DNA from: Chloroflexota bacterium
GTDB taxonomy: Bacteria; Chloroflexota; Anaerolineae; UBA4142
Direction: 5' to 3'
Length of the DNA: 64,000 nucleotides
NCBI GenBank assembly: GCA_016208315.1
Contig: JACQYF010000176.1
Coordinates: 1-64,000, forward strand
Positions 3,970 to 30,538 of the stretch are shown piece by piece. The translations under genes were made by a program, and so were the position numbers. Each line of letters opens with the position of its first letter. Position 1 is the stretch's first letter. Below the pieces are notes generated by a model. That model worked only from the letters and a program-made list of their open reading frames with translations, searched no databases and was not told where the DNA came from.

Positions 3970-3995
3970 AAAAAATGACCACCCGTAGGTGGTCA
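3970..3995 (-). terminator. Hairpin terminator after the NarL-type regulator
   Basis: Perfect inverted repeat TGACCACC / GGTGGTCA with loop CGTA (3976-3995). On the minus strand it is followed by six T residues. It lies downstream of the regulator gene at 4113-4772. An A/T run on the other side means it could work in both directions, but only minus-strand genes lie here. Confidence 0.6.
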
Positions 3996-3999
3996 AAAA

Positions 4000-9245: not shown

Positions 9246-9291
9246 TAGTCCTCCGATAATCGTTCGTACGCTTCATCCGACCATCGCGGTT

Positions 9292-9615: not shown

Positions 9616-9637
9616 CAACATCCTCCGCACATGTAGG

Positions 9638-9687
9638 GCAAGTTGCTAACTTGCCTGGAGATGCAAGTTGCTAACTTGCCTGGAGAT
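9638..9687. repeat. Two tandem 25-bp repeats with internal palindrome
   Basis: Identical 25-bp units at 9638-9662 and 9663-9687 each contain the palindrome CAAGTTGCTAACTTG. The second unit overlaps the 3' end of the GH105 gene and provides its last codons and TAG stop. Confidence 0.9.
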
Positions 9688-10750: not shown

Positions 10751-10768
10751 ACGTTGCCTCTCGCCTTT

Positions 10769-10801
10769 AGACTTCACAAGTCTTGGAGACTTCGGAAGTC
10801 T
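10769..10801. repeat. Palindromic AGACTTC repeat at the xylB 3' end
   Basis: Two neighbouring palindromes, GACTTCACAAGTC-like and GACTTCGGAAGTC, separated by TTGGA. They encode the last residues (FRSLQDL) and the TGA stop of xylulokinase. Confidence 0.7.
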
Positions 10802-12330: not shown

Positions 12331-14675
12331 TATTGAACCCGCGTCGCGCAACCAAAGATCCGCCGCGCGACCATCCGTTTCGGTCCTGAAATCACGAACG
12401 AACCGTTCAACCGAATGTCGTGCGATGAACTGCCGATCATCACCTGAATCGTCCCCGGTTCGACGACGAGCTGCATCGCTTCATCGTGAAAGGCGAGCAG
12501 GTCAAGCGGCAATTCAAAGACGATGGCGCGTGTTTCGCCCGGCGCAAGACCCACGCGCTGGAATCCTTTCAGCTCTTTGACGGGACGCGGCGCCGATGCG
12601 ACCTCATCGCGAATGTACAACTGCATCACCTCGTCGCCCGCGCGCTGGCCCACGTTCTTGATGTCCGCGCTGATGGTGACGCACGCATCTGCCGCATCGA
12701 TTTTCAAATTCGAATACTCGAACTTGGTGCAGCTCAAGCCGTGACCGAACGGAAAGAGCGGCGTCACCGGCAGTTCGACGTAATCGGTGTGCCAGGTGGA
12801 TCGCCCGCCCGATGGCTTGTGATTGTAAAACGTCGGAATCTGTCCGACGGCACGGGCCCAAGTCATTGTCAGTTTGCCGCCAGGATTCACATCGCCAAAC
12901 AAAACATTGGCGACCGCGGCGCCCCCTTCTTCGCCGGGGAGCCACGCTTCGACAACCGCTGGAATATGCTCTGCGATCCACGGAATCGCCAGCGGGCGAC
13001 CGTTCACGAGCACGACGACAGTGGGCTTGCCTAGCGCCGCAATCGCTTGTACCAATTCCTGCTGCGCGCCCGGCAACCCCAGCTCGGCGCGGTCGCGCGA
13101 TTCACCGCTCGTGCAATTGAGCGATAGACCCGACTTGTCGCCGACGACGAGAACGACCACCTCGGCTTGCTGCGCCGCTTGGACCGCTTGGTCGAATCCG
13201 GATTTATCGGCGTCGTTGACCGCGCACCCTGGCGCAAAGAGCACGCGCGTGTCAGGCGAAACCTTTTCGCGAATCGCATCGAGAATCGTATGAATTTGGA
13301 CTGTGCCAGGAACGATACCGTTGGATTGCGGATCGCATTTGAGCCGCGTCGCCAGTTCGGGATGTCCTTCCAACAGCGTCTCGACGTGCGCGGGATGCGT
13401 ATAGTCGCCGAGCAAATGGCGCGCTTGATTCGCGTTCGGTCCGATGACGGCGATGCTTTTGATCGTTTTGGCGAGCGGCAACACATCGCCGTCGTTCTTT
13501 AACAGCACGATGCTTTGCTCGGCGATGCGGCGCGCGAGTTGACGCTGCGCGGGTGTCTCGTACACGGCCATCACGCGCTCGACGGCGACATACGGATTTT
13601 CAAATAGACCCAATTCGAACTTTTTCCGCAAGATGCGTTCGACCGACGTATTGAGCAACTCTTCGTGCACTAATCCCGATTTCACGGCTTGCCTCAGCGG
13701 CGCGCCGTTGCATTTCGTTTCCGGCAATTCGACATCAATGCCCGCGTTCAACGCGAGATGCGCCGCGTGCGCTTCGTCGGCGGCGACGTGATGAAAATCG
13801 TACAGCATCGAAATCGCGCGATAGTCCGAGACGACCGGACCATCGAAGCCAATTTCGCCGCGCAAGAGATCGGTCAGAATCGCGCGCGACGACGCGACGA
13901 CGACGCCGTCGAGTTCCGAGTACGCGTTCATCATTGAAGCCAGATGCGCTTCTTGAACTACGGCTTGGAACGGCATCAGAATCACGTCGCGCAGTTCACG
14001 CGGACCGATGTGGACGGGCGTGCAATTCATCCCCGCTTCGGAAATCCCATGACCGAGAAAATGTTTGCCCGTTGCCATCACACCGTCGCGCAAACTGTCA
14101 CCTTGCAAGCCGCGGACATAGGCGATGCCCATTTGCGAGGCGAGCAACGGGTCTTCGCCAAATGTTTCTTCGACGCGACCCCAGCGTGGATCGCGCGCCA
14201 CGTCCAACACGGGCGCAAGTCCTTGATGCGCTCCCACCGCGCGCATTTGGGCGCGAATCACGTTCGTCATTTGCTCCGCGAGTTCGGGCATCCACGTGCT
14301 CGCCAGTCCGATGATTTGCGGAAAGCACGTCGCGCCGAGCGCCATATAGCCGCCGCAGCATTCTTCGTGGACGATGGCGGGAATGCCGAGGCGCGTCTGA
14401 TGGACGAGATACGCTTGAATCGCATTCGCCATTTTCGCGCTCTCGACCGGGGCAAGCGTGCTGCCGCCGCCCACGCGCGTAATTTGTCCGATGCCTTGTC
14501 CCATCCACGCCGCGGCGTGCGGTTCCGACAAACCGTGCTCGTCCTGCAATTGATATACCCAGCACGAACCCAGCTGCGCGATTTTTTCGTCGAGGGTCAT
14601 CCGCGCCATCAAATCATGAACGCGCTCGGCGATGGTATGGGATAGGTCTTTGTAAATTGGAAGGGTGTCGTTCAT
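12330..14675 (-). CDS. GH3 beta-xylosidase / beta-glucosidase
   Basis: A 781-residue glycoside hydrolase family 3 enzyme without a signal peptide, so probably cytoplasmic and acting on imported oligosaccharides. Seen in order: N-terminal TIM barrel ([32 protein letters not shown]-type segment, TGKHFLGHG), nucleophile region ([17 protein letters not shown]), then the beta-sandwich ([40 protein letters not shown]) and a C-terminal FnIII-like domain ([18 protein letters not shown]). It overlaps xylA upstream by 4 bases and xylB downstream by 1. Company with xylA/xylB favours beta-xylosidase. Confidence 0.92.
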
Positions 14676-15841
14676 CGCACACCCATCAACAAATCGAACA
14701 CCAGCTGATCGAGTCGTTCGTAATGCATACCACGACTGCCCAACGTGATGCGGTCGAACGTGTGCGCTTTCAGCGCAGTGGCTTTTTCGCTCGAGTACGG
14801 ACCGAAGAATTGTGCCATCGCCGAATCGCCGGCATGGATTTCTTTCAGCAGGGCTTGAATTCCCGCATCGGCGTTATAGCGCGCCGCTTTGTCTTTCAAG
14901 ATGAGATACGTGCGCATACAACCGCGCGCAAAGTCCTTAACGCCTTCCGCGTCCTCGGTGCGATAAGCGTGCGCGTCGAAATGACGCGAGCCAGCATAGC
15001 CGACGTCTTCCAAGAATTTCACCAGGAAAAAACTCTGCTTCATGTTGTGCGAGCCAAATCGGAAATCCTGATCGTAGCGGCAGAAATTTTGATCGTTCAA
15101 ATCAATGTGGAACAATTTGCCCGCATCCCACGCTTGCGCGACGGCGTGCATGAAATTGAGTCCCGCCATTTGCTCGTGCGCCATTTCGGGATTGACGCCG
15201 ACCATGTCGGGATGATCGAGCGTGGCGATAAAGCCCAGCATCGCGCCCGTCGTCGGCAGATAAATGTCGCCGCGCGGCTCGTTCGGTTTCGCTTCGAGCG
15301 CGAATTTCAAATCGTAGCGCTGGTCACGGACATACTCGCACAGAAAGTTGATCGCCTCGCGAAACCGCTTGCCGGCATCGAGCGGATTCTTCGCCGCATC
15401 GCTTTCGCTGCCTTCGCGTCCGCCCCAAAAGACGTACACCCTTGCGCCGAGTTCCACGCCCAGATCAATGGCGCGCATCGTCTTGTGTAACGCATACGCG
15501 CGCACCGCGGCGTCGTTCGCGGTGAACGCGCCATCCTTGAACACCGGATCGCTAAACAAGTTCGTCGTCGCCATCGGCACGACGATCCCATTTTCCTGCA
15601 ATGCCTTTTTGAATTCGGCGACGATACGGTCGCGCTCGGCTGCGGTAGCATCAATAGGCACCAGATCGTTGTCGTGCAAATTCACGCCGTACGCGCCAAT
15701 TTCGGCAAGCAGATGCACGATTTCCACCGGAGACAGTTTGCGGCGCACGGGTTGTCCAAACGCATCGCCGCCAGGATTGCCGACGGTCCATAGACCAAAA
15801 GTGAAACGATGTTCGGGTTGGGGTTGAAATGAATCAGGCAT
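14672..15841 (-). CDS. xylA: Xylose isomerase, short (class I) type
   Basis: A 389-residue TIM-barrel isomerase, the length of the actinobacterial class I form rather than the roughly 440-residue class II form. It converts D-xylose to D-xylulose with two divalent metals. Motifs: [15 protein letters not shown], the catalytic His in [24 protein letters not shown], metal ligands in [34 protein letters not shown] and [19 protein letters not shown]. The gene overlaps the GH3 start by 4 bases, indicating coupled translation. With xylB it gives the classical isomerase route. Confidence 0.95.
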
Positions 15842-15861
15842 TTTGTTTGTTCCTAACTTTG

Positions 15862-17022
15862 CTACTTTTGATCGCTTGCTGCGCCGACAATGATTCCTTC
15901 ATCGGCGAAATTCTCGATGCTCTTGGTTTTTTGATGAAAGCGCGGCGCGTTCGCAAGGATACCTTCCGCTGCATAAAACGGATTGCTCGCCGTTAACGGT
16001 AATTTCACTTTGACATCATACGTCCCCGCATAGTAAATGGCCGTAATCAGTTCGAGGGTTCGTCTTCCGGCGTGACCGTCAACGAGCAATTCTGCGCTGC
16101 CTGCTAGCGCGGCGAGCACATTGGCGATTTGTCCGGTGTGTCCTTCGTATGCCAATGCGGGTAATTCATCGTGCAGCGATTGGATTTCCGTTTCCAAGAG
16201 CGGATTGGGTTCAGGGAACCCGTTTTCTCTTTGTGCCGATGCGATCACCTTCCACGGCGCGGCGATGGTCGCGCGTTCGCCTTGAATCACAAATTGCTGC
16301 GGCTCGCCGTGATGCGCAAGCGACGCGTTGATCTGACCAATGCCACCGTTGGCATAGCGGAGTATCGCGGTCGAAAAATCCTCGACCTCGGAATTGGCGT
16401 GCGCGATATTGGCGATGACCGCTTGCAGTTCGACCGGCATGCCGACGATCCATTGAAACAGGTCAACCTGGTGAACGGCATGATTGAGCGTACACCCACC
16501 GCCCTCTTTTTCCCATGTCCCGCGCCACCAGAGATCGTAATAATTCTGACCGCGCCACCAGAAAGAATCAACTTGGGCGTGAACAATCGTGCCGATGACA
16601 TTGCGCTCCACGATTTTTTTCAATTTCCAATTCGGCGTCTTGAACCGATTTTGCGCGACCACCGAAAGCAGTTTGCCGCGCGCTTGCGCAGCTTGTAGCA
16701 TCTGGTCGCATTCTTGCAGCGAGGTCGCCATCGGTTTTTCGACCAGCACATGCTTGCCCGCGTTGAGCAGATTGATGGCGATCTCGGCGTGAACGTACGG
16801 CGGCGTGCAGACCGAAGCCAGATCAAAGTTACCGTCGTTCAATAACGCGCGATGGTCATCGTAGACCTTGACCTCCAAGCCACATTTTTCCGCCTTACGG
16901 ACTGCTTTCTCTGGATAAATATCGCACAGCGCGACGATGCGACATTGCTCCGGGAATTGAAGATAGCCCCAAATGTGACTGTCCGAAATTCCGCCCGTTC
17001 CAATAATGGCAATGCGAATCAT
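15862..17022 (-). CDS. Gfo/Idh/MocA-family oxidoreductase
   Basis: A 386-residue NAD(P)-dependent sugar or inositol dehydrogenase-like protein. N-terminal Rossmann motif [15 protein letters not shown], the family's [11 protein letters not shown] segment with the catalytic Lys in EKP, then [20 protein letters not shown] carrying the usual His of the active site. The C-terminal alpha/beta domain has a typical length. The exact sugar is not deducible; in this operon, oxidation of xylose, rhamnose or a uronate-derived sugar is plausible. It lies 20 bases upstream of xylA and 46 bases downstream of a second, more divergent family member. Confidence 0.9.
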
Positions 17023-17034
17023 GAGTCTAGTCCT

Positions 17035-17073
17035 TTTAGATTTCCGAAGTTTCCCAAACTTCGGAAATCTAAA
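17035..17073. repeat. Perfect 18-bp inverted repeat, TTTCCGAAGTTT family
   Basis: Arms at 17035-17052 and 17056-17073 with loop CCC; each arm contains ATTTCCGAAGTTT or its complement. It overlaps the end of the second oxidoreductase and provides its TAG stop. The same core recurs in frame inside the 862-residue protein at 30733-30763. Confidence 0.9.
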
Positions 17074-18094
17074 CTCGCAAGTATCCCAACCGCTGCGCGT
17101 TCGCTTCCGCTTGCAGCGCGAGTTGCGACGCGAGAAAGCAATGCGCTTGCGGCATCGCCGTTTCGGTGCGATTCATAATATCGGCGATGAGTTGCCGACC
17201 GTAAGGCAAATCGTGCTGACTGCAATCGAGGTAGCGAATTTCTTGTTGATCTATCAGAAAGAGATGATCGCCGCCGGGGCGGCCCGCAAGGTCAATGTAC
17301 TTGCGGAGTTCGATGTAACCGTCCGTGCCGATTATCGTCAGGCGACCGTCGCCCCAGATGCCCAATCCTTGCGGCGTGAACCAATCGACGCGAACATAGC
17401 CGACGCCGTTGTCGCTCCGCAGCATCATATCGCCGAAATCTTCCAGCTCTGGAAATTGGGGGTGGTGGAAATTTGCGACCTGGGAAGCGACCACCTCGGC
17501 TTGCGACGAGCCGGTGAAGAATAGGAATTGGTCAACTTGATGCGACGCAATGTCTGTGAGGATGCCGCCATACTTGTCGCGTTGATAAAACCAATCGGGA
17601 CGCACGGGAGGATTGATGCGATGCGGACCCAAGCCCACCGTCTGCACGACTTTGCCGATGGCGCCGGCTTGAATCAACTCGCCTGCTTGCACGGCAGCGC
17701 GCACTTCGAGGCGCTCGCTGAAACAAATCGAGTAGATGCGTTGGGTTTCGGCTTGGACGCGGCGCGCCTCGGCAAGTTGTTCGAGCGTCGTAAAGCCGCG
17801 TTTGTCGCTCATGAAATCTTTGCCGTGTTTCATCACTATTATTCCCAGCGGCGCACGTTCGCACGGAATCGCGGAGGTGATGATGAGCTGAATCGTTTCA
17901 TCTTCCAAGATTTCTTTTGCGCTGCCAACCAAGCCGGCTTGCGGAAATGCGCTCGCAAACTCTGCGATCAGGTCGGGTTCGGTCGCATAGAACGAAACGA
18001 ATTCTGCGCCCGCCCGCAAAAGCAAGCGCGCCTGACCATAGATGTGATTGTGATTGATGCCAATCGCCGAAAAACGAACGGTGGGTTGACTCAT
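17069..18094 (-). CDS. Divergent Gfo/Idh/MocA-family oxidoreductase
   Basis: A 341-residue protein with the two-domain layout of the family (N-terminal Rossmann-like segment VRFSAIGINHNHIYGQARLL, dimerization/catalytic half with YGGILTDIASHQVDQFLFFT). The normal EKP tripeptide is replaced by SDKRG in MKHGKDFMSDKRGF, and the nucleotide-binding Gly motif reads IGINHNH, so the cofactor site is unusual. The His in SHQVDQF is retained. Three bases separate it from the upstream orphan gene. It may be an enzyme with altered chemistry (for example a lyase or dehydratase of 3-keto sugars, as known for some relatives) rather than a simple dehydrogenase; this is inference. Confidence 0.8.
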   Translation of the reverse strand: MSQPTVRFSAIGINHNHIYGQARLLLRAGAEFVSFYATEPDLIAEFASAFPQAGLVGSAKEILEDETIQLIITSAIPCERAPLGIIVMKHGKDFMSDKRGFTTLEQLAEARRVQAETQRIYSICFSERLEVRAAVQAGELIQAGAIGKVVQTVGLGPHRINPPVRPDWFYQRDKYGGILTDIASHQVDQFLFFTGSSQAEVVASQVANFHHPQFPELEDFGDMMLRSDNGVGYVRVDWFTPQGLGIWGDGRLTIIGTDGYIELRKYIDLAGRPGGDHLFLIDQQEIRYLDCSQHDLPYGRQLIADIMNRTETAMPQAHCFLASQLALQAEANAQRLGYLRV

Positions 18095-18097
18095 ACG

Positions 18098-19564
18098 TTA
18101 CTCCGTTTTCAAGGTTAGCGCGCAATTGATCGCTTGACCATCGGCAACGATATAACGAACCTCAAAGAATTTTTCACGCGGTCGGACTTGGAACTCAGCC
18201 GCATCCGTTTCGACGCGCGCCGATAGATTCGGCAAGCGCCAAACGTTTCGCTCGATACTCGCGCCGGGCGCGTGAACGAGAAACGCAATCTCGCTCGTCG
18301 TCGAAATCTCCAAGCGATTTTTGCCGGCGCGCGCATCCACGGGTTCAAGATAGAACGCGCGCACCCAGCCGATGTGGTCCGCATCAATGCGCCAGTGAAT
18401 CGTCGCCGGGTGCAGTTGATTGGACGGCGGCGGCGTGCGGCTGGTAAATTCTGCGCCGATCATGCGGTCCTCGCCCAGCCACGCGGTTGCCACGCGCCGC
18501 GGCGCATCGGCAACGACGCGCTCGATCTGCCGCTCGCCGCGAAAGGCGCGAAAGTGCGCCAACGCATCCTCTGGGATTTGCGCGCCGATAAAGGCGATCG
18601 GCGGGACAAACCCAATATCGTGTTCATGCTCAAAGGGCTGATCGGTGTCCGGAAAGGGCGCAATCGCCTTATCGGTGGCGAGACGCAGCCAAATTCCAAT
18701 CACCGAAACGTAATCGAGCATGTTCATGCCGTAACTGCGGTCATACGGTCCCGCGAGGTTGCGCAAACCGGCGTGATAGAATTGCGCCACATCGCGCCAG
18801 AGGATCGTTTCCATTTCGCCGCCGAGTTGCGCCAACACGGGCGAGAGCGCAGGATACGAGCGCCACAACGCGAGCGCGTACAAGTCCACGCCATAATACG
18901 TCGGCGAGTTGTATTCGGCAAATCCGCCGTGTTGCTGGAAGAGGCGATAGACCTCGCGCGCCATCCGTTCGCCTTCTTCAAACCACAATGGCTCGTAAAA
19001 GCGTTTGCCCGCAAAGCACAGCATGAACGCGTGCATCAGCGCAATGTTCGTGTACGCGGCGCTCAAGCCGCGCGCCAGCGCGCCATCTACCGCGCGGCGA
19101 ATCGCCGCATCCATTCTTTGAATCAACACTGGCGACAGTTGCTCAGGATATTCGAGCAGAACGAGCGCAAGCGCCGTGACGATAAACTCGCGCCAGTTGG
19201 GGTCATAGTCGCGCCAGATAACCGCATCGTGGGGCGGATACGGTTCTTCCGGCGCGCGAAAGAACGTACCGTGAAAGACGCGCGTGGGCGCATCGAATTG
19301 ATAATCGAGCACCGCGTCGAGGACGCGAACGGCGCGCGCCGCATCGCCAGGCCCATTCCGCATCAACAAGCCAAAGCCGTACCACACACTGCCGCGAATC
19401 GAGTGATGCGGCGTCGTCAATTTCGCATCGCCCGCATTCCACAATAGCCGCGCTTGCTCGTCCCACAAATTACTCGCCCAACGCATGGACGCCGTAAACA
19501 AATCGCGCGCGTTCGCGTCTAGCCCATCCAATGGTCTCGTCCCTCGGCGGCGTACTTTTGACAC
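18098..19564 (-). CDS. Orphan toroid-like protein, first gene of the catabolic operon
   Basis: A 488-residue protein, not confidently assigned. It is helix-rich over residues 20-330, with a central motif HGGFAEYNSPTYYGVDLYAL, then a beta-rich C-terminal part (TIHWRIDADHIGWVRAFYLE). That layout, (alpha/alpha) barrel followed by beta-sandwich, is what heparinase/alginate-lyase-type enzymes show, but no catalytic residues could be fixed. No signal peptide. Start is GTG at 19564 with AAAAGG eight bases upstream. The plus-strand operon encodes a larger protein (30539-33127) with a similar GGF-E-S-Y-D-L-AL motif. Probably a cytoplasmic glycan-processing enzyme. Confidence 0.65.
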   Translation of the reverse strand: MSKVRRRGTRPLDGLDANARDLFTASMRWASNLWDEQARLLWNAGDAKLTTPHHSIRGSVWYGFGLLMRNGPGDAARAVRVLDAVLDYQFDAPTRVFHGTFFRAPEEPYPPHDAVIWRDYDPNWREFIVTALALVLLEYPEQLSPVLIQRMDAAIRRAVDGALARGLSAAYTNIALMHAFMLCFAGKRFYEPLWFEEGERMAREVYRLFQQHGGFAEYNSPTYYGVDLYALALWRSYPALSPVLAQLGGEMETILWRDVAQFYHAGLRNLAGPYDRSYGMNMLDYVSVIGIWLRLATDKAIAPFPDTDQPFEHEHDIGFVPPIAFIGAQIPEDALAHFRAFRGERQIERVVADAPRRVATAWLGEDRMIGAEFTSRTPPPSNQLHPATIHWRIDADHIGWVRAFYLEPVDARAGKNRLEISTTSEIAFLVHAPGASIERNVWRLPNLSARVETDAAEFQVRPREKFFEVRYIVADGQAINCALTLKTE

Positions 19565-19589
19565 GCCGTACCTTTTGACCTATACTTGA

Positions 19590-19656
19590 AATAGTCTAGT
19601 CCAGTTTTCCGTGCGCGTCCTCTGTTTTTGGGACATTCATTCGAGATTTTGGAACA
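19590..19656 (-). promoter_or_regulatory. Operator and putative promoter of the minus-strand catabolic operon
   Basis: On the minus strand a 39-bp element (19618-19656) contains TGTTCCAAAA and, 21 bases further on, TGTCCCAAAA, then ACAGAGGA. It matches the element at 23297-23335 at about 31 of 39 positions. Downstream lies a plausible -10 (TAGACTAT, about 19590-19597), putting the start site just before the GTG at 19564. Direct repeats 21 bp apart next to a poor -35 are typical of AraC-type activator sites. The regulator gene starts at 19681 in the opposite direction. Confidence 0.6.
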
Positions 19657-19680
19657 GATTGTCCTTACGTTGGTTATTCC

Positions 19681-22600
19681 ATGACAGACTCTCCTCCTCG
19701 CCGCCGCATTACGATTGGCGTTATTCTGGATAACCTGTCCGGTGAATCGCGCTCCAGTCTGTGGCCCGGCATCGCCGATACCATTCAAGCCCAGGGCGGC
19801 AACCTGGTTTGCTTTACCGGCGGCTATTTGCTCGACCCGCACGATTTCACCCAGCGCGGAAATATCGTCTACGAGATGATTGACAAGGACCAGCTGGACG
19901 GTCTGATCATTTGGACGTCGTCCTTGTCCAGCTATGTCGGGCACGCCAGCATCGAAAGATTCTGCGCGCGGTATCGTCCGCTGCCGATGGTGAGCATCGG
20001 CGGCATCCTCGACAACATCCCCAGCATTATCCTCGATAGCTATCAGGGTATGCGCGACGCGATACTTCATCTCGTCACCGTCCATCGGCGTCGGCGCATT
20101 GCGTTCATTCGCGGTCCGGAGGGACATCGCGATGCGGAAGAGCGGTATCGCGCCTATTGCGATGTGCTGCAAGAGCAGGGCTTTGCTTTTGCGCCGGAGC
20201 TGGTTTCCCCGCCGTTCAAATGGTTCGAGCCCGGCGGCACCCTCATGATCGAGACGCTGCTCGCCGGGCAGCGCATCGCCTTCGATGCCGTCGTCGGCGT
20301 GAACGATAACGTCGCCGTCGAGGCCATCGAAGCGCTGCACGCGCGCGGCCTGCGCGTTCCCGAAGACGTTTCGATTGCCGGCTTTAACAATTCGCCGCTC
20401 AGCCGCGTCGTTACACCTCTGTTGACCACCGTCCCCTGGCGCATGTACGAACGCGGACGCCAAGCCGCCCAATTGATCCTCGCGATGTTGGCCGGCGAAC
20501 CGGTCCCCGCGCAAGTGCTCCTGCCGACGCGCTTGATCGTGCGTCAATCGTGCGGCTGCCAAGACCCCACCGTGACGCAGGCCAAAGTCGAATCGCCTGC
20601 CGCATTGTCCGTCGCCACGATAAACCGCGCCCAGAGTTTGGCGGCGCTCGAGCAAGCCATCGAAGAAAAGGAACGTCCGCCCGAGGCCTGCGCCGAATTC
20701 TTGGATTCGTTTCTGAACGACTTGCAGGAGCAGGCCGCCAACGCCTTTTTGCCGACGCTCGAAAAGATCTTGCGCCAAGTCAGCACAATCGGCGGCGATA
20801 TTTCGGCGTGGCAAGAGGCGATTTCGACTTTGCGGCATCTACTGCTGCCCACACTCTTGCACGATCAACCCACGCTGCTGCGCGCCGAAGACTTGATGCA
20901 TCAAGCGCGCGTGATGATCGGTGAACGGTCGCGGCGGCTGTGCGCGTACAAGGAATGGCAGGCGCGCCAAGAGACCCTGCACTTGCGCCGCATCAATCAC
21001 GGAATGACGAACACGACGAATATCCCCGCGTTGATGAATATTTTGGCGGAAGAATTACCCCCGCTGGGCATTGCGCGTTGTCACCTCGCGTTGTATCAAG
21101 ACCCCACTCAGCCGACCGAAACCTGTCGAGTGGTCATGGCGTTTGACGAGAACGGTCGAATTGAGTTGCCAGCGGAAGGGCAATCCATTCCATCGCGATC
21201 CTTTGCGATGGGCCGCGATCTGCCGAGCGAAGCGCCGTATCACATCTTGGTCATGCCGCTGTATTTCCAAGATGAACCCCTGGGTCTCATTCGATTTAGC
21301 CAACAGCCCATCGGCGACATCTACGAGTTGCTGCAAAACGAGATCAGCACGGCGCTCAAAGGCATTTTGCTGGCGGAACAAAACGCGCGGCTGTATCAGC
21401 AAGCCGTGGAAGCCGAACGTCAAGCGCAAATCGGCAGACAACTGGCCGAGCAAGCCGACGATCTCAAGAGCAGTTTCCTTTCTATGGTGAGCCACGAGTT
21501 ACTGACGCCGCTGGTGTTACTGGTCGGCTTGAGCGAAATGCTGCTGCGTAAACGCACCGGCGATCAACTCGCCTTGCCCGAATCTTTTCGTTCCGATCTC
21601 ACGCGCATCCATCTCAGCGCGCAACAGCTTGGCAATCTCATCCGCGATGTGTTGGATTTGGCGCGTAGCCAGATGGGGCAATTGCATTTGGCGAAAAAGC
21701 CGCTGGACCTGCGCGAGACGGTCAAGACCGTGGCCCTGGTCGGCGCGGACATCGCGCGCGACAAAGGATTGGATTGGCAATTGGTGATTCCCGAACAGTT
21801 GCCGATGGTGGACGGCGATTCGTCGCGCCTGCAGCAAGTAATTTTGAATTTGATCACCAACGCGGTCAAGTTCACGAGCCAGGGCTATGTCAGACTGGCG
21901 GTCGAATCGCACGATCAAACTGTCACCGTCAGCGTGAGCGATACCGGACTGGGTGTGCCGCAGCCAGAGCAAGAGGCGATCTTCGACGAATTCCGACAAT
22001 CGGAGCGGACCGTCGCGCGTGGCTATGGCGGGCTGGGCATCGGGCTAGCCATCTGCCGACAACTCGTGGAACTGCACGGCGGCCAAATCGGTATCCGTGC
22101 GTCCGGCGAAGAAAACGCCGGCTCGACGTTTTATTTCACGCTGCCCGTGCTGAGTGAGCAACCCTCGGACCCGTCCAGCCCCAAGCCCTGTTCGGACGTC
22201 GTGTTGGTGTTAAGCGAGCGCGCGAATCAGTGCGCGCGTTTGCATGAATTTTTGACGCGCGAAGGATTCCACGTCCAAGCGCTCGGCATCGCCGAAACGC
22301 CCGAGTGGTTCGCGCAGGTGTTGGCTATCGCGCCGGGCGCAATTGTGTTGGATGTTCAATCTACGTTGGCGCATGGATGGCAGGTGATCGAGCGGCTCAA
22401 AGACAATCCGTTCACGCATGCGATCCCCGTATTGTTCTATTCGCTCCCCACCGCGGACCTCGGCGCCATGGTGACCGTTGACTATCTGACCAAGCCGCTG
22501 GACGCCACGACGCTGATCCAAACGCTGCAACGCTTCGGTCTGGAGCATGACGCGAGCGATTCGAGAAAAACCATCCTGGTCGTAGACGACGACCCGGCGA

Positions 22601-23274
22601 TTCTGGAAATGCACTCGCGCATCGTTCAAGATTTTCTGCCCGATTGTCGCGTGCTTCAAGCGGCAAACGGACGCGCGGCGTTAGAGCGCATGGCGCGCGA
22701 AACGCCGTCGCTCGTGCTGCTCGATCTAAGGATGCCGGAACTGGACGGCATGGGTGTGCTGGCGGCAATGCAAGAAAGTGTCAAGTCGCGGGGCGTGCCG
22801 GTCATCGTGCTGACCGCGCAAACCCTGACCCACAACGAGCTAGCGCATCTGAATCAGAGTGTTGCCGCGGTTCTGCAAAAAGGTCTGTTCACGACCGAAG
22901 AAACCCTTGCCCACATCCAACAGAGCTTGGCGCGCAACAAACGCTTGGGCAGTGAAGCGCGCCGAATCGTTGCCAAGATAGTCGCCTTTATCCACGAGCG
23001 CTATGCGGAGCCGATCTCGCGCGAAGAGATGGCGTCCCATGTCGGCATCAGCGCGCGCCATTTGACGCGCTGTTTCCACCAAGAGATGGGAATCTCCCCG
23101 ATCACCTATCTCAACCGCTATCGCGTCAAAAAAGCCAAACAACTTTTGGAAGCGGGCGAGCGGAATATTACAGAGATCGCCGCGGCGGTTGGATTTTCAA
23201 GCAGCAATTATTTCACCGACGCCTTTCGACGCGAAATCGGAATGTCCCCCCGCGACTATCGCCGCGGACGCTAA
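19681..23274 (+). CDS. One-piece hybrid regulator: LacI-like sensor, histidine kinase, two receivers, AraC output
   Basis: A 1197-residue protein without signal peptide or membrane segments, so cytoplasmic. Domains: a LacI-type periplasmic-binding-like sugar sensor (residues 1-300, RRRITIGVILDNLSGES to SIAGFNNSPLSRV) lacking the LacI HTH; a linker and GAF-like region (about 430-570); a histidine kinase with His near residue 605 (SMVSHELLTPLVLL) and N-box LNLITNAVKF near 720; a receiver with Asp near 891 (IVLDVQS) but no acidic pair; a complete receiver with Asp near 1015 (LLDLRMPELDG); and an AraC-type double HTH (1093-1197, ending in GMSPRDYRRGR). It likely senses an imported sugar and activates the two flanking operons, whose starts share a 39-bp element. 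Such hybrids are known from Bacteroidota and Chloroflexota. Confidence 0.93.
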   Translation: MTDSPPRRRITIGVILDNLSGESRSSLWPGIADTIQAQGGNLVCFTGGYLLDPHDFTQRGNIVYEMIDKDQLDGLIIWTSSLSSYVGHASIERFCARYRPLPMVSIGGILDNIPSIILDSYQGMRDAILHLVTVHRRRRIAFIRGPEGHRDAEERYRAYCDVLQEQGFAFAPELVSPPFKWFEPGGTLMIETLLAGQRIAFDAVVGVNDNVAVEAIEALHARGLRVPEDVSIAGFNNSPLSRVVTPLLTTVPWRMYERGRQAAQLILAMLAGEPVPAQVLLPTRLIVRQSCGCQDPTVTQAKVESPAALSVATINRAQSLAALEQAIEEKERPPEACAEFLDSFLNDLQEQAANAFLPTLEKILRQVSTIGGDISAWQEAISTLRHLLLPTLLHDQPTLLRAEDLMHQARVMIGERSRRLCAYKEWQARQETLHLRRINHGMTNTTNIPALMNILAEELPPLGIARCHLALYQDPTQPTETCRVVMAFDENGRIELPAEGQSIPSRSFAMGRDLPSEAPYHILVMPLYFQDEPLGLIRFSQQPIGDIYELLQNEISTALKGILLAEQNARLYQQAVEAERQAQIGRQLAEQADDLKSSFLSMVSHELLTPLVLLVGLSEMLLRKRTGDQLALPESFRSDLTRIHLSAQQLGNLIRDVLDLARSQMGQLHLAKKPLDLRETVKTVALVGADIARDKGLDWQLVIPEQLPMVDGDSSRLQQVILNLITNAVKFTSQGYVRLAVESHDQTVTVSVSDTGLGVPQPEQEAIFDEFRQSERTVARGYGGLGIGLAICRQLVELHGGQIGIRASGEENAGSTFYFTLPVLSEQPSDPSSPKPCSDVVLVLSERANQCARLHEFLTREGFHVQALGIAETPEWFAQVLAIAPGAIVLDVQSTLAHGWQVIERLKDNPFTHAIPVLFYSLPTADLGAMVTVDYLTKPLDATTLIQTLQRFGLEHDASDSRKTILVVDDDPAILEMHSRIVQDFLPDCRVLQAANGRAALERMARETPSLVLLDLRMPELDGMGVLAAMQESVKSRGVPVIVLTAQTLTHNELAHLNQSVAAVLQKGLFTTEETLAHIQQSLARNKRLGSEARRIVAKIVAFIHERYAEPISREEMASHVGISARHLTRCFHQEMGISPITYLNRYRVKKAKQLLEAGERNITEIAAAVGFSSSNYFTDAFRREIGMSPRDYRRGR

Positions 23275-23296
23275 ATACCCTTCCCCCGCGCTATTT

Positions 23297-23360
23297 TGTT
23301 CCAAAATCCTCGACAGATGTCCTAAAAACAGAGGACGCCGCCCCCAATCCGGTATAGAAT
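23297..23360 (+). promoter_or_regulatory. Operator and promoter of the plus-strand transport/catabolic operon
   Basis: A 39-bp element (23297-23335) has TGTTCCAAAA at 23297 and TGTCCTAAAA at 23318, exactly 21 bases apart, then ACAGAGGA. A likely -10, TATAGAAT, is at 23353-23360, which places the -35 position inside the AGAGGA part; that hexamer is far from consensus, as expected for an activator-dependent promoter. The same element in inverted orientation precedes the catabolic operon at 19618-19656. Confidence 0.65.
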
Positions 23361-23409
23361 TTTATGGGAGTTATTTGCCGCGTTGAATTTCTCCGATGGG
23401 ATTAATTCC

Positions 23410-24909
23410 ATGCCTCAAACGATCATGATCGGCGCCAAGGATCCAAACATCGCTTATCTCCTGCAACGCTACGCCGAAGAGAGCGGATTTCAGACCCTGC
23501 ACGCCTCTTCGGGCAAAGAGGTGCTTGACCAGGCGCGGCGGCTGCAACCGCAGCTCATTATCTTGGATATCGAACACGGCAGCCAAGCCGAGTGTCAGGT
23601 GGCGCGCCAATTGAAGACCAGTTCAACCACCCGTCACATCCCCATCGTGATCTACTCTTACCTCGACGAACTCCCCGATGCGTTGCGGGTAGACGTGGAT
23701 GGATGGTGGCTCAAATCCGTGATGTATGCCGACTTTGTGGAAATCGTCAAGCGCATTGGCTTGAATCCGGCGGCCCGCGCGTCCAGTCCACGCGGCGCAG
23801 GCAACCATCGAACCACCACGGCGCGCCACATTCGAGAAGGAGTCCCGGTGATCGGAAATACTCAAACGGACAAAACCCTGCTCCAAGTCAACGGCCTCAA
23901 AATGCACTTTGCCATCAAGCGCGGTTTTCTCGCATCGCGCACCGTGGGCTATGTCAAAGCAGTTGACGACGTGAGTTTTTTCATCCGCGAAGGCGAAACG
24001 CTGGGGCTGGTCGGCGAAAGCGGTTGCGGCAAGACCACCACGGGGCGCCTGGTCTTGCGCGCCTATAATCCGACCGCGGGCGACGTGTGGTTTAGGGATC
24101 GCAAACTGGGACGCGTCAACATTCCAACCCTGGATAAATCCCAACTCGCGCAATTGCGCCAGAACATGCAGTTGATCTTTCAAGACCCCTACTCGTCGCT
24201 CAATCCCCGCATGACCTTGTTGGAGATTGTGGGCGAACCGCTGTACGTCAACAAGGTCGCGCAGGGCAGCGCGCTCAAGGACCGCGTCGCGGAACTTTTG
24301 CGCGTGGTCGGATTGCGCCCCGAATATATGAGCCGTTATCCGCACGCCTTTAGCGGCGGTCAGCGTCAGCGCATAGGCGTGGCGCGCGCCCTCGCGCTCA
24401 ATCCGCAACTGATCGTCTGCGATGAGCCGGTTTCCGCGCTCGACGTTTCCGTGCAAGCGCAAATCCTCAATCTCCTTCAAGAACTGCAAGAGAAATTCGG
24501 ACTCACCTATTTATTTATCTCGCACGACCTCAGCGTCGTCGAACACATCAGCAACCGCGTCGCCGTGATGTACGTAGGCAAGCTCGTGGAACACGCTCCG
24601 ACGGACGAGCTATTCATCAACCCCAAGCACCCCTATACCGAAGCATTGCTCTCGGCGGTTCCGAAACCCGACCCGCGCGTTCGTACCGAACCGATTGTGA
24701 TGCCCGGCGAAGTCGCCGACCCGGCTCACCCGCCGAGCGGCTGCTATTTCCACCCGCGCTGCCGCTATCGAGTAGAGCAATGTGAGCAGGAGGAACCGAC
24801 CCTGAAACAAATCGCTCCAGATCACTTTGTCAGTTGTCATCGCGCGCACGAACTGCAACTGACCGGAGTCGTAGGGAGTGAGGACGCAAAGGAGGTGGAC
24901 ATCGGATAA
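23410..24909 (+). CDS. Receiver domain fused to an OppF/DppF-type ABC transporter ATPase
   Basis: A 499-residue protein. Residues 1-120 form a receiver-like domain ([34 protein letters not shown] with the acceptor Asp, and Lys in [12 protein letters not shown]). From about residue 150 it is a complete oligopeptide-type ATPase: Walker [20 protein letters not shown]-loop [14 protein letters not shown], signature [15 protein letters not shown], Walker [15 protein letters not shown]-loop [10 protein letters not shown], and the C-terminal Cys-rich [15 protein letters not shown]. Inside the gene, GAGAAGGAG and a GTG at 23848 in the same frame could start a free 353-residue ATPase of normal length. 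ATG 23410 is preferred to an upstream TTG. First gene of the importer operon. Confidence 0.88.
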
Positions 24910-24978: not shown

Positions 24979-27078
24979 ATGAAGCAGCACCGAAGCATCT
25001 CCCGTCGTGAGTTCTTACGGCTGTCTGCGGTAACCGCAGTCGGAACCATCGTCGCGGCCTGCGCGCCGGCGCCCACTCCAATTCCGCCCACCGCGGTCCC
25101 GCCGACCTCCGCGCCGCTCCCGACAGCCGTTCCCCCAACGTCGGCGCCCGCGGCCACGACCGCGCCCTCGGCCGTGCCGCCAACTGCCATCCCAGCCGCC
25201 AAGTACAAAGAAGCCCCGGCGCTCGCCGAGTTGGTCAAAGCCGGCAAGTTGCCCGCCGTGGATGCGCGCCTACCCAAAAACCCGATGGTCATGGTCGGGT
25301 ACGAAGGCGTCGGCAAGTACGGCGGAACATGGCGCCGCGCGTTCCAAGGTGTCTCCGATACCTGGGGTCCCACCAAGGTCGTTGACCGCGCCTGGGGATG
25401 GTTCGACAAGAACCTGAACCTGATTCCCCGCCAGCTTGAATCGTGGAGCGTCAGTCCAGACGGCAAAGTGTGGACGATCAAGATGCGCCAGGGTCTCAAG
25501 TGGTCCGATGGCAAGGCAGAATACACCACCGACGACATTGCCTTCTGGTGGAAGAACGAGCTCCAAAACAAAAAACTCACCCCGGGCGTCCAAACGATTT
25601 GGACCGACCCAGACAAGACCTACTGCAAGTTTGAGGCGGTAGACAAGTACACCGCGACCTTCACCTATGGCAAGCCCAAGCCGATGTTCATTTACAATAT
25701 GACCCGCGGCGGCACCGGCGGCGGCGCAACCATCGCACCTCTTCCCGTCTCACCCAGCCACTATATGAAAGAGTTCCACGAAGATACAACGTCGAACAAG
25801 GATGCCCTGGCGGCGGACGTCAAAAAGCGCGGGTTCACAGACTGGCAAACGTACTATATGCAGTTCGCCAGGCAATGGAATATGAATCCCGACCGACCCA
25901 CCCTCGGCGCGTGGCTTGCGAAGGGTACCCTCCAAGACGAAGTGCTTGTCATGGAGCGAAATCCGTATTTCTTCGGTGTGGATAGTCAAGGCAATCAACT
26001 TCCCTACATTGACAAGGTCACTCACCGCCTGTTTCAATCGTCCGCGCCCGACGTGTTCACCCTCCGTATCACCAATGGCGAGATTGACATGCAATATCGC
26101 CACACGCAGATCAACAACCTGCCGGTCTACAAGGCCAGCGAGGCAAAGGGTGATTACAAGGTGGTACTGGGCGCGCTGGCCAGTCACGTCGCGATCGCCT
26201 GCAACCTAACCACGAAGAACAAACCGCTCGCCGAGTTCTTCAATCAGCGCGATGCGCGTATCGCCATGTCGCTGGCGGTCAACCGCGACAACATGAACCA
26301 GTTGGTCTACAACGGGCTGCTCACGCCGCGCCAGTACAGCCCCACTAAGGCATCGCCGCAGTTCTATGACAAACTCTCTAACGCCTACATCAAATACGAC
26401 CCGGACACGGCGAACAAGATGTTGGACGCGCTCGGTTACACCAAGAAAGACGCAAACGGCATTCGCTTGTACCGCGATGGCAGCGGTCCGATCAGTTTCG
26501 CCGTTGAAAGCACCAGCGCCACCGGCACAACGGATGCCGATGCGATCAACTTGATGAGCAAAGACCTGTTAAAGATCGGCGTCCAAGCCACCTACAAGTT
26601 TGTCGAACGGTCGCTCTACACCCAGCACTATACCGCCAACGACATCGAAGCCGGCTGGTTTGGGGCTGACCGCGCGCTGTTGCCAATCGTGCCGGAAGCG
26701 ATCATCTTCCGAGGCGTACAGCCGGACCGACCGTGGTGTCCGGGCTGGTGGTACTACTACACCGAGCCAAAAAACGTCAACGCGGTCAAGCCGCCGGATG
26801 GGCACTGGATCTACAATATCTGGAAGATCTGGGATGAAGAAGTCATCACCCAGCCGGATCCCGCCAAGCAAACAGCGGCTTTCAAGAAAATCCTCGACAT
26901 CTGGGCGACCGAACTGCCCATGATCACCTTCCTCGGCGAGCTGCCTGCGCCGACCATCGTCAAGAACGGCTTTAAGGGCTATCTCCCCGGAATGCCGAAC
27001 GACGATACGGTCGGCGACGAGCAATTCGCACAGGGCGAGACGTACTTCTGGGACGACCCCAGCAAGCACAGTAGTTAG
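24979..27078 (+). CDS. ABC transporter solute-binding lipoprotein, family 5
   Basis: A 699-residue extracytoplasmic binding protein of the peptide/nickel/oligosaccharide type (SBP_bac_5). The N-terminus has a twin-Arg sequence (SRREFLRLSAVTAVG) and a lipobox ending in VAAC, then a Thr/Pro/Ala-rich linker (PPTAVPPTSAP repeats) before the mature domain. Family hallmarks: YGGTWRRAFQGVSDTWGPT, LESWSVSPDGKVWTIKMRQG, LKWSDGKAEYTTDDI. In thermophilic and anaerobic bacteria close relatives bind xylo-, manno- or pectic oligosaccharides rather than peptides, which suits this operon. Length exceeds the usual 500-600 residues. Confidence 0.92.
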   Translation: MKQHRSISRREFLRLSAVTAVGTIVAACAPAPTPIPPTAVPPTSAPLPTAVPPTSAPAATTAPSAVPPTAIPAAKYKEAPALAELVKAGKLPAVDARLPKNPMVMVGYEGVGKYGGTWRRAFQGVSDTWGPTKVVDRAWGWFDKNLNLIPRQLESWSVSPDGKVWTIKMRQGLKWSDGKAEYTTDDIAFWWKNELQNKKLTPGVQTIWTDPDKTYCKFEAVDKYTATFTYGKPKPMFIYNMTRGGTGGGATIAPLPVSPSHYMKEFHEDTTSNKDALAADVKKRGFTDWQTYYMQFARQWNMNPDRPTLGAWLAKGTLQDEVLVMERNPYFFGVDSQGNQLPYIDKVTHRLFQSSAPDVFTLRITNGEIDMQYRHTQINNLPVYKASEAKGDYKVVLGALASHVAIACNLTTKNKPLAEFFNQRDARIAMSLAVNRDNMNQLVYNGLLTPRQYSPTKASPQFYDKLSNAYIKYDPDTANKMLDALGYTKKDANGIRLYRDGSGPISFAVESTSATGTTDADAINLMSKDLLKIGVQATYKFVERSLYTQHYTANDIEAGWFGADRALLPIVPEAIIFRGVQPDRPWCPGWWYYYTEPKNVNAVKPPDGHWIYNIWKIWDEEVITQPDPAKQTAAFKKILDIWATELPMITFLGELPAPTIVKNGFKGYLPGMPNDDTVGDEQFAQGETYFWDDPSKHSS

Positions 27079-27081
27079 TCT

Positions 27082-27172
27082 CTGTCATTTCGACGAACGT
27101 TCTTTGTGAGGAGAAATCCCTTTTCGACACGGCAAGAGATTTCTCCGGCAAAGACCGCCATCGAAATGACAG
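27082..27172. repeat. GTCATTTCGA inverted-repeat element, copy 1
   Basis: About 90 bp bounded by CTGTCATTTCGACGA and TCGAAATGACAG, with an internal GAGAAATC / GATTTCTC pair. A related element sits at 62611-62702. No gene within; it occupies the gap between the binding protein and the first permease. Confidence 0.8.
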
Positions 27173-27177
27173 CTTGA

Positions 27178-27204
27178 GTAGGGGCGGGGTGACCCCGCCC
27201 CTAC
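27178..27204. repeat. 27-bp perfect palindrome, GTAGGGGCGGGG family
   Basis: Thirteen-base arms (GTAGGGGCGGGGT and its complement) around one base. Other full or partial copies are at 2063-2086, 55205-55228 and 58321-58341. Confidence 0.9.
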
Positions 27205-27226
27205 AGACGAGTCTCGGAGGCAGTGT

Positions 27227-28213
27227 ATGCTCAGTTACATCATCCGGCGTCTCTTTTTTATGGTTCCCACCTTGTTCCTGATATCGGTGGTTTCGTTTAT
27301 CGCGCTGCAACTGCCGCCCGGCGATTACTTGACCTCGTACGCGGCCCAGTTGAGTTCACAGGGCGAGTCGGTTGACCAAGAAGCGATCGAATCCTTGCGC
27401 GAACGCTATGGTTTGGGCGAGCCGGTCTATGCGCAATACGGCAAATGGGTCTATGGCATCCTGACGCGCGGCGACTGGGGTCAGTCCCTGGAGTGGCAAA
27501 AGCCGGTGGGTCAATTGATCTGGGAACGCTTGGGGCTTACGCTAGCGCTCGCCGTTTTTTCGTTGCTCATCAGTTGGTTGATCGCCATTCCAATTGGGGT
27601 GTACACGGCCACCCACCAGTACTCGATTCTAGATTATCTCATGTCTACGTTTAGTTTTCTCGGCGTAGGCGTGCCGGCATTTTTGTGGGCGCTGATGATC
27701 ATGTATTTCGCCCAAGCCGTGTTCGGATTGAACGTGGGCGGCTTGTTTTCTGAAAAGTTTATAACCGCGCCCTGGTCGTGGGACAAGGTGGTGGATATGT
27801 TCCAGCACCTCTGGATTCCGGCGTTGATCGTCGCGCTGGTGCATACCGCCGCCGAACTGCGAACCACGCGCGCCAACCTGCTCGACGAATTGAACAAGCC
27901 CTATGTTGAACTCGCGCGCGCCAAAGGACTCTCGGAAGGCAGATTGATTTGGAAGTACCCCGTGCGCGTCGCCTTGAACCCATTTTTCAGCACCGTCGGC
28001 TGGTCGTTGGCAAATCGCATCTCGGATATTACCCTCATGTCGGTCGTACTCAGTCTGGAGACGACAGGCCCCATGCAGTTGCGCGCACTCACATCGCAAG
28101 ATATGTACCTGGCAGGCAGCTTCTTGGTTTTGTTGAGCGTACTCGTCGTCGTCGGCACATTGGTCTCGGATGTCATGCTGGCGTGGGCGGATCCCCGCAT
28201 TCGACTGGAGTGA
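27227..28213 (+). CDS. ABC transporter permease, DppB/OppB type
   Basis: A 328-residue inner-membrane permease with about six membrane segments. N-terminal MLSYIIRRLFFMVPTLFLIS, ERYGLGEPVYAQYGKWVYGI, and the ATPase-coupling loop in ELNKPYVELARAKGLSEGRL are standard for the family. GGAGG lies upstream of the ATG. It forms the channel with the DppC-type permease that begins 6 bases after its stop. Confidence 0.93.
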   Translation: MLSYIIRRLFFMVPTLFLISVVSFIALQLPPGDYLTSYAAQLSSQGESVDQEAIESLRERYGLGEPVYAQYGKWVYGILTRGDWGQSLEWQKPVGQLIWERLGLTLALAVFSLLISWLIAIPIGVYTATHQYSILDYLMSTFSFLGVGVPAFLWALMIMYFAQAVFGLNVGGLFSEKFITAPWSWDKVVDMFQHLWIPALIVALVHTAAELRTTRANLLDELNKPYVELARAKGLSEGRLIWKYPVRVALNPFFSTVGWSLANRISDITLMSVVLSLETTGPMQLRALTSQDMYLAGSFLVLLSVLVVVGTLVSDVMLAWADPRIRLE

Positions 28214-28219
28214 ACGGCT

Positions 28220-29377
28220 ATGACTGTTCTTGATCAGACAAAGACAGAAATCGCCCTCGAAGAGGAAGAGCTTCAAAAAGCCGGCGAAAAGGTCTATGTG
28301 GCCCCGCCGTGGAAACTGATGTGGTGGCGATTCCGCAAACACCGGATGGCTCTCGTCTGCGCCGGGGTCTTGACCGTCTTGTATTTTGTCGCCCTCTTTG
28401 CCGAGTTCGTCGCGCCTTACGATCCCGATAATTCGCTCATCCAGTTCAAGCAAGTCCCGCCCACTGCGATTCACATCCGCGACGCGGCCGGAGAATTTCA
28501 TTTCCCGTTTGTCTATCAACACCGCCGCAAGATGGATCCGCAGACGCTTCAAATTACGGTGACCGAAGATACGACCATTCGCTATCCCGTCGAGTTTTTT
28601 GTGCGTGGGTTCAAGTACAAGCTCTTTGGGATGTGGGAAACGGACGTTCACTTGTTTGGCGTGCCCGCGGGCAAAGAGCAACAAGGGGTCTTTTTGATTG
28701 GCACGGACCGTTTGGGACGCGATATGTTCTCGCGGGTAACTTATGGCGCGCGTCTCTCGCTCTCGATGGGTATGGTGAGCGTGTTCCTCAGTCTCGCGTT
28801 GGGCGTGGTGTTGGGCGGCATCTCCGGCTATTTCGGCGGCAAAGCGGATATTTTCATACAGCGCGTCATCGAGTTTATTCGTACGATTCCCACCATTCCG
28901 CTGTACATGACGCTGAGTGCGGCGCTGCCGGTCAACTGGCCCGTCGAGTGGGTGTACTTTGGCATCACCATGATTCTGGCGTTGGTCGGCTGGACGTATC
29001 TGGCGCGCGTCGTGCGCGGGCGCTTCCTCGCCATGCGCGAAGAGGATTTCGTCCTCGCCGCGCGTCTGAATGGCTCGAGTGAAATGCGCATCATTTTGCG
29101 CCACATGCTGCCTTCGTTTCTCTCCTATGTTATCGCGGCGCTGACGTTGAATATTCCCAACATGATCCTGGCTGAAACGGGCTTGAGTTTCATCGGCTTG
29201 GGCTTGCGCCCACCGGCGATCAGTTGGGGCGTCTTGCTGCAAGAGGCGACGAACGTCAGCTCGTTGATGCTGGCACCGTGGGTGCTCGCGCCCGGTTTTG
29301 CCGTGGTCATCTCCGTGCTGGCGTTCAACTTTTTTGGGGATGGTCTGCGCGACGCGGCGGATCCTTACGCGCGATAA
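28220..29377 (+). CDS. ABC transporter permease, DppC/OppC type
   Basis: A 385-residue inner-membrane permease. After a cytoplasmic N-terminus (RFRKHRMALVCAGVLTVLYF begins the first helix) there is an unusually long region of about 120 residues before GTDRLGRDMFSRVTYGARLSL, which is the conserved core. The EAA-like coupling loop is in FVLAARLNGSSEMRIILRHM. Ends with FFGDGLRDAADP as usual. Pairs with the upstream permease. Confidence 0.93.
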   Translation: MTVLDQTKTEIALEEEELQKAGEKVYVAPPWKLMWWRFRKHRMALVCAGVLTVLYFVALFAEFVAPYDPDNSLIQFKQVPPTAIHIRDAAGEFHFPFVYQHRRKMDPQTLQITVTEDTTIRYPVEFFVRGFKYKLFGMWETDVHLFGVPAGKEQQGVFLIGTDRLGRDMFSRVTYGARLSLSMGMVSVFLSLALGVVLGGISGYFGGKADIFIQRVIEFIRTIPTIPLYMTLSAALPVNWPVEWVYFGITMILALVGWTYLARVVRGRFLAMREEDFVLAARLNGSSEMRIILRHMLPSFLSYVIAALTLNIPNMILAETGLSFIGLGLRPPAISWGVLLQEATNVSSLMLAPWVLAPGFAVVISVLAFNFFGDGLRDAADPYAR

Positions 29378-29394
29378 AGAATGAAAGGCGACCG

Positions 29395-30429
29395 ATGACA
29401 TTGGAAAACAATGCGCTGATCGAAGTAAAAAACTTGAAGACGTACTTCTTCCTGGACGAGGGAACGGTGCGGGCGGTGGATGGCGTTGACATTGAGATCA
29501 AACGCGGTCAAACGCTGGGCATCGTCGGCGAGAGCGGCTGCGGCAAGAGTGTGACCGCGCGTTCGATCTTGCGCATCGTGCCAAAACCCGGCCGGATCGT
29601 CGAAGGTGAGATCAAATTGCACCGGCTGGTTGAACAGCGCCATGGCTCGACGGTAACCGATGTGATCGAGCTGACCGACCTGGATCCGATGGGCCGCGTG
29701 ATGCGCGGCCTGCGCGGTTGTGAGATGGCGCTCGTGCCGCAAGAACCCATGGCGTCACTCAGCCCGGTACACACGATTGGCGATCAGATCGGGGAAGCGA
29801 TCACCTTGCACCAAAAACTCAGTAAGCAAGCGGCGCGCGAACAAGTGATTGAAATGCTTAACCTCGTCGGATTTCCCAAACCGTCACAGCGAGTCGACGC
29901 TTATCCCTATCAACTTTCGGGCGGGCTGCGCCAACGCGCGGTCATCGCCATGGCGCTGTCGTGCCATCCCAGTTTGCTCATCGCCGACGAACCCACCACC
30001 GCGCTCGACGTGACCACCGAGGCGCAGATATTAAAGTTGATGCGTTCGCTGCAGCAAGAACTCGGCATGGCGATCATGTACATCACGCACAATCTCGGCG
30101 TGGTCGCGCAAATGACCGAACGGGTCATCGTCATGTACATGGGCAAGGTCGTCGAAGAAGCGCCCGTGGATGCGATATTCCACAATCCCCTGCACCCCTA
30201 CACGGCCGCGCTCTTGCGTTCGATTCCGCGACTGGGTCTCAAATCGCGCGAACACAAGCGGCTTGAATCCATTCGCGGCGCCGTGCCCGATCCTTACTCC
30301 ATTCCCAAAGGGTGTCCTTTCCATCCACGTTGCAGCCGCAAAATTCGTGGCGTGTGCGATCAAGAAGAACCGCCCAATGTTCAAGTCGAGCCAGGGCACA
30401 AGGTTCGATGTGTGCTGTATAAGCGGTAA
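29395..30429 (+). CDS. ABC transporter ATPase, OppD/DppD type
   Basis: A 344-residue ATPase of normal length. Walker [20 protein letters not shown]-loop [15 protein letters not shown], signature [15 protein letters not shown], Walker [15 protein letters not shown]-loop THNLGVVAQ, and C-terminal [17 protein letters not shown]. The ATG at 29395 follows AAAGG by a normal distance; the longer open frame upstream overlaps the permease gene and is rejected. It completes a five-component importer whose other ATPase carries a receiver domain. Confidence 0.93.
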
Positions 30430-30450
30430 AAGATTCCACGGGAAACAAAA

Positions 30451-30510
30451 GGAAATGAAGGAACTGAGGGTACTCGGGCGCGTCAAATTTCCCTCAGTTC
30501 CTTCATTTCC
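30451..30510. repeat. Perfect 20-bp inverted repeat
   Basis: Left arm 30451-30470 (GGAAATGAAGGAACTGAGGG) and its exact complement at 30491-30510 with a 20-base loop, between the OppD-type ATPase and the next gene. It could attenuate transcription after the transporter genes, though no T-run follows. Confidence 0.85.
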
Positions 30511-30538
30511 CTCATTCTTGACGATTCGGAGAGAAAAC

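Follow-up and report, generated by a model that had tools for sequence, protein, structure and literature searches.

What do two closely similar 39-bp elements do on either side of a hybrid regulator gene, and which protein reads them? The question is raised by a 64,000-nucleotide stretch of Chloroflexota DNA (contig JACQYF010000176.1, hereafter the window), for which an original prediction, made from the letters alone, had proposed that the elements are operators of that regulator. Our analysis makes it highly probable that each element is an activator-dependent promoter-operator, which the regulator encoded between the two would bind and activate through its AraC-type domain. The elements and the regulator are the following.

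19618-19656, minus strand: element A, predicted operator/promoter of the catabolic operon, from its sequence and its occurrence at the same place in genomes G011, G007 and G002
19647-19656, minus strand: half-site R1 of element A, TGTTCCAAAA
19626-19635, minus strand: half-site R2 of element A, TGTCCCAAAA
19618-19625, minus strand: 3' part of element A, ACAGAGGA
23297-23335, plus strand: element B, predicted operator/promoter of the transport operon, from its sequence and its counterparts in relatives
23297-23306, plus strand: half-site R1 of element B, TGTTCCAAAA
23318-23327, plus strand: half-site R2 of element B, TGTCCTAAAA
23328-23335, plus strand: 3' part of element B, ACAGAGGA
19681-23274, plus strand: hybrid regulator of 1197 residues, from Pfam and orthologues
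22987-23271, plus strand: AraC-type DNA-binding domain, residues ~1103-1197 of the regulator, from Pfam and relatives in the PDB

Element A, read on the minus strand from 19656 to 19618, is TGTTCCAAAATCTCGAATGAATGTCCCAAAAACAGAGGA and element B, read on the plus strand from 23297 to 23335, is TGTTCCAAAATCCTCGACAGATGTCCTAAAAACAGAGGA. The two had been said to agree at about 31 of 39 positions; they do so at exactly 31, and the best other 39-mer on either strand of the window matches element A at 22. The direct repeats could likewise be read in both elements as described, the starts of TGTTCCAAAA and TGTCC(C/T)AAAA lying exactly 21 bp apart in A and B alike. With up to 3 mismatches allowed, the pair pattern TGTYCYAAAA-N11-TGTYCYAAAA was found 2 times in the window as against 0.01 expected from shuffles. 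When the 6.26-Mb genome was searched by pattern matching only, A and B were the sole matches with 0 mismatches and 4 further matches carried 3 mismatches each, the reversed-pattern control giving 3 matches; the local regulon that had been proposed does look local. These counts are partly circular because the pattern was derived from A and B themselves, and the independent evidence therefore comes from conservation in other genomes.

We aligned 18 non-redundant sites, which display conserved blocks in a constant order: TGTYCYAAAA, then TGTCCNAAAA at 21 bp, then ARGAC, with variable bases in between. A TANNNT -10 hexamer stands at a single fixed offset in all 18 sites, and G, A and C at offsets 37-39 are found in 18, 17 and 15 of them, respectively. 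ARGAC falls on the position of the -35 hexamer, exactly 17 bp from the -10, and 4 bp separate the end of R2 from the -35 position in the aligned sites, which fits the layout of AraC/XylS activators with half-sites about two helical turns apart abutting the -35. The promoters read in this way, together with that of the regulator itself, are listed here.

19593-19621, minus strand: catabolic promoter, degenerate -35 AGGACG (19616-19621), 17-bp spacer, -10 TAGACT (19593-19598), from the 18-site alignment
23332-23360, plus strand: promoter of the transport operon, degenerate -35 AGGACG (23332-23337), 17-bp spacer, -10 TAGAAT (23355-23360), from the 18-site alignment
19558-19586, plus strand: sigma-70 promoter of the regulator, TTGACA-17-TATACT, 11 of 12 matches, from a consensus promoter scan and kept in relatives

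Because two AraC-type half-sites abut a degenerate -35 with a -10 at a fixed distance, each element has the build of an activator-type promoter. The 39-mer can thus be read as two half-sites plus a degenerate -35, its 3' part ACAGAGGA being largely core promoter. Here the original prediction stands in part only: the plausible -10 that it placed after ACAGAGGA recurs throughout the alignment, but ACAGAGGA is no separate downstream element, its AGGAC being the -35 position. No unaided sigma-70 consensus promoter was found at element B by the consensus promoter scan, and the catabolic transcript is predicted to start near 19586. Two near-identical copies lying so close together might be functionless products of a local duplication. 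We regard this as vanishingly improbable, since the repeats, ARGAC and the -10 are fixed across genera, in contrast to the element's internal spacer and the 19 bases preceding the -10, which have diverged, and since G011 and G007 retain both copies; unless the alignments mislead, this pattern of conservation already refutes a mere duplication.

The regulator combines, in this order, a LacI-type Peripla_BP_3 domain, HisKA, HATPase_c, an unmatched receiver-like stretch, Response_reg and an AraC-type HTH_18 domain (Pfam). The AraC-type output domain that had been read between the sites is there: HTH_18 matches residues 1117-1195 over 79 of 80 positions (E 6.7e-27, 94 bits), as a two-helix-turn-helix domain of the AraC/XylS family, and the PDB relatives of this part include AraC, MarA, Rob, YesN, a protein of the hybrid two-component systems (HTCS) and XylR. 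The closest solved relatives of the sensor are LacI/CcpA proteins, and XylR (PDB 4fe4/4fe7) matches the regulator at both ends. H605 and D1015 are invariant among orthologues. No membrane stretch was detected in the protein, the maximum 19-residue Kyte-Doolittle value being 1.73, inside HisKA, and the sensor is predicted to be cytoplasmic. Residues ~835-950, which have no Pfam match, look by eye like a second, degenerate receiver (D in 'VLDVQ', K in 'LTKP').

A LacI-family sensor might suggest that the elements are repression sites, at which the regulator would block both promoters in the absence of sugar as LacI does. Element A indeed lies in the 5' untranslated region of the regulator, as follows from the position of the regulator's promoter, and binding there could block the regulator's transcription. 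However, the protein lacks the LacI helix-turn-helix and begins at the sensor fold (Pfam, orthologue comparison), its DNA-binding part is AraC-type, and the operator is a direct repeat and not a palindrome, so that the regulator does not belong with the LacI repressors. The repeats moreover lie on the upstream side of the -35 and adjoin it, a position taken by activators, and neither promoter has a usable -35 of its own. Repression as the main role of the elements is thus very unlikely; self-repression at A is possible as a second effect besides activation. The regulator's TTGACA and TATACT are kept in G011, G002 and G007 with a spacing of 17-18 bp. Across its -35 and spacer, TTTTGAC occurs twice, 17 bp apart (19556-19580, plus strand), and TTTTGACC is also present in G011; the pair is possibly due to chance or a second binding site.

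Orthologues of the regulator that carry the element in other genera share 76%, 71%, 74%, 61% and 51% identity with it. The motif was found upstream of the orthologous operons, where its absence would have counted against the proposal, in G011, G007, G002, G050, G037, G239, G146, G048 and G303. G011 and G007 have both sites at the same places with the same two flanking operons; in G002, whose contig breaks off within the regulator gene, the catabolic-side site is present; G050, G037, G239 and G146 have the transport-side site, and in G048 and G303 a site precedes the receiver gene. The counterpart of element B lies just 3' of the regulator gene in G011, G007, G050, G037, G048, G239, G146, G303 and G204.

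We then scanned 396 genomes of the class, using only the motif and no gene information. Matches were obtained in 15 genomes, and in 14 of these the regulator or a homologue adjoins the motif, with an Opp-type transporter following in most; 9 of the 14 had not been used in building the pattern. The reversed pattern gave 0 matches in the same genomes. Homologues of the regulator at E 1e-120 or better occur in 58 of the 396 genomes, so the adjacency is not a base-rate effect. The match in G324 (L097), which has no regulator nearby and no -10, was set aside as chance. A weight-matrix scan of the regulator loci placed the high-scoring sites mostly 2-450 nucleotides past the 3' end of the regulator and added sites there, e.g. 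in L111, L113 and L208, the reversed control giving none. In this search every locus with a DNA-binding-domain identity of at least 63% has a site, and none at or below 56% has one.

In a clade of more distant homologues (L124-L126) the regulator gene is directly followed by another repeat, (G/T)TACA-N16-GTAAATGAC, whose halves again lie 21 bp apart. GAC occupies the -35 position there, and a TA-rich -10 follows at unchanged spacing (second operator type, at L124:11592, L125:6775 and L126:3310). Geometry has been kept and letters have changed, which is what one would expect of related regulators that diverge in specificity. An open search around all regulators, for 21-bp repeats of any sequence accompanied by GAC and TANNNT, returned 7 sites as against 0.25 from shuffles; these are mainly known sites, and 2 of the 7 are probably chance.

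These observations also bear on whether the elements might be operators of a different regulator, AraC-type or not, whose gene lies elsewhere in the genome, the gene between them being a mere neighbour. The genome does hold many kinase and LacI-type sensor genes, and adjacency alone is no proof. The association in 14 of the 15 matched genomes nevertheless concerns this very regulator or its homologues, the motif tracks the similarity of this protein's DNA-binding domain, and the diverged clade retains the layout with altered letters, all of which makes a remote regulator distinctly unlikely. Some points do weigh against assigning the elements to the regulator between them as activator-dependent promoters. 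Several homologues with 53-62% identity in the DNA-binding domain have no recognisable site in the flanks searched, some of which are short; G050 and G037 show the transport-side site only, and the catabolic operon is not adjacent there; and the promoters, each a degenerate -35 combined with a good -10, are read from the sequence, with the sigma factor and the start sites assumed.

From sequence, conservation, geometry and association we infer a mechanism that would run as follows. Expressed from its own sigma-70 promoter, the regulator would sense a cytoplasmic sugar with its LacI-type domain and so control autophosphorylation of the kinase, and the phosphate would pass to the last receiver. 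Two DNA-binding domains would then occupy the 21-bp direct repeat in tandem, on the same face and two helical turns apart. Since the downstream half-site abuts the degenerate -35 (ARGAC), 17 bp from the TANNNT -10, the bound regulator could recruit RNA polymerase to promoters that have no proper -35 of their own. The outcome would be the simultaneous induction of an operon for rhamnose/xylose/uronide catabolism and of an Opp-type oligosaccharide transporter. The position of A just downstream of the regulator's start suggests that occupied A would open the catabolic promoter and at the same time limit the regulator's own expression, a possible self-damping.

The two sites do head a catabolic and a transport operon, as had been proposed.

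7971-19564, minus strand: catabolic operon, from Pfam, NCBIfam and synteny
23383-24909, plus strand: first gene of the transport operon, a weak receiver domain and an OppF-type ATPase in one frame, from Pfam
24979-30429, plus strand: family-5 solute-binding protein, two permeases and an OppD-type ATPase, from Pfam and synteny

Downstream of A, the catabolic operon encodes a 488-residue protein, two GFO/IDH oxidoreductases, XylA (xylose isomerase), GH3, XylB (xylulokinase), GH88/105, RhaM (L-rhamnose mutarotase) and RhaA (L-rhamnose isomerase); B precedes the Opp-type operon. Judging from these enzymes, the substrate is probably an oligosaccharide containing rhamnose, xylose and an unsaturated uronic acid.

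Some further features of the two operons were recorded. The receiver within 23383-24909 scores 29.8 bits in Pfam, under the cut-off, and in G007, G050, G037, G239 and G146 it has a small gene of its own that precedes or overlaps oppF. In G011 (L067) the receiver and OppF matches, at 2625-3038 and 2975-4066, overlap in different frames, and the start region of OppF is a very short open frame. The fusion in the window could be real or an assembly indel. The 488-residue protein (18098-19564, minus strand) and one of ~966 residues (30227-33127, plus strand) are conserved in relatives, have no Pfam or NCBIfam match and are possible new carbohydrate-active enzymes. The predicted model of the former is poor (pLDDT, predicted local distance difference test, 48.5), helical with a beta-rich C-terminus; a fold search with it gave nothing significant, and the alpha/alpha carbohydrate-enzyme folds among its weak matches were not used. 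Next after the transport operon comes a B12-binding radical SAM protein (33121-34866, plus strand), which is its neighbour in G011, G007, G050 and G239 as well.

For L-rhamnose in Chloroflexota, a comparative study found only DeoR- and LacI-family regulators, in Chloroflexales (PMC3870299). In uncultured Chloroflexota, transcription factors and operators have hardly been mapped, and a motif that leads to its own regulator in nearly every matched genome permits a direct assignment of regulator, operator and promoter and connects a hybrid kinase family, so far an orphan, with a class of substrates. The clades in which the half-sites have changed and the geometry has not provide natural material for working out the DNA recognition code of AraC-type domains. 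Among the matches listed in the genome scan, the full-length family occurs in Chloroflexota metagenome-assembled genomes only. We see an even chance that these belong to a phylum-wide Chloroflexota family of soluble sugar phosphorelays contained in a single protein (LacI-type sensor, kinase, receivers, AraC domain), each with its own 21-bp direct repeat in fixed -35/-10 geometry just past its own gene, the operator code of which could be read from sequence alone.

The layout of the sites has close parallels in Escherichia coli, where AraC at araI1-I2 uses two half-sites in direct repeat at a distance of 21 bp, of which the downstream one lies at the -35, and where XylR activates the xylose genes from direct repeats close to the -35. 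AraC differs in its cupin-type sensor, in the absence of a phosphorelay and in DNA looping via a distant site; no such site was seen here. XylR likewise joins a LacI-type ligand-binding domain and an AraC-type DNA-binding domain in one cytoplasmic protein; unlike the present regulator, it has neither kinase nor receiver between them, and the overall architecture differs.

The HTCS of Bacteroides have direct-repeat motifs with an average distance of 21 bp and a periplasmic sensor, are membrane-bound and have been described as unique to Bacteroidetes (PMC3878776). As in these systems, e.g. HTCS_Rgu, the regulator carries kinase, receiver and AraC-type domain in one chain, has ~21-bp direct-repeat operators and stands beside glycan operons (PMC3878776). 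It departs from them in having no transmembrane stretch, a LacI-type sensor and an extra receiver-like stretch, in an Opp-type ABC transporter instead of SusCD, and in its phylum; of the HTCS traits, the periplasmic sensor and the membrane anchor are absent. The nearest in sensor type is BT1754 (HTCS_Fru) of Bacteroides thetaiotaomicron, an HTCS with a COG1879 sugar-binding protein as its sensor (PMC3878776), which is periplasmic there and predicted to be cytoplasmic here. Neither a hybrid kinase with LacI-type sensor and AraC-type output nor an AraC hybrid regulon of Chloroflexota was found in the literature, most subscription journals being outside the coverage. The operator layout is already known, and is extended here to a second phylum; what is new is the combination of a cytoplasmic LacI-type sensor with a phosphorelay, in Chloroflexota. 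By analogy, the regulator appears to function as an HTCS in which XylR supplies the front end.

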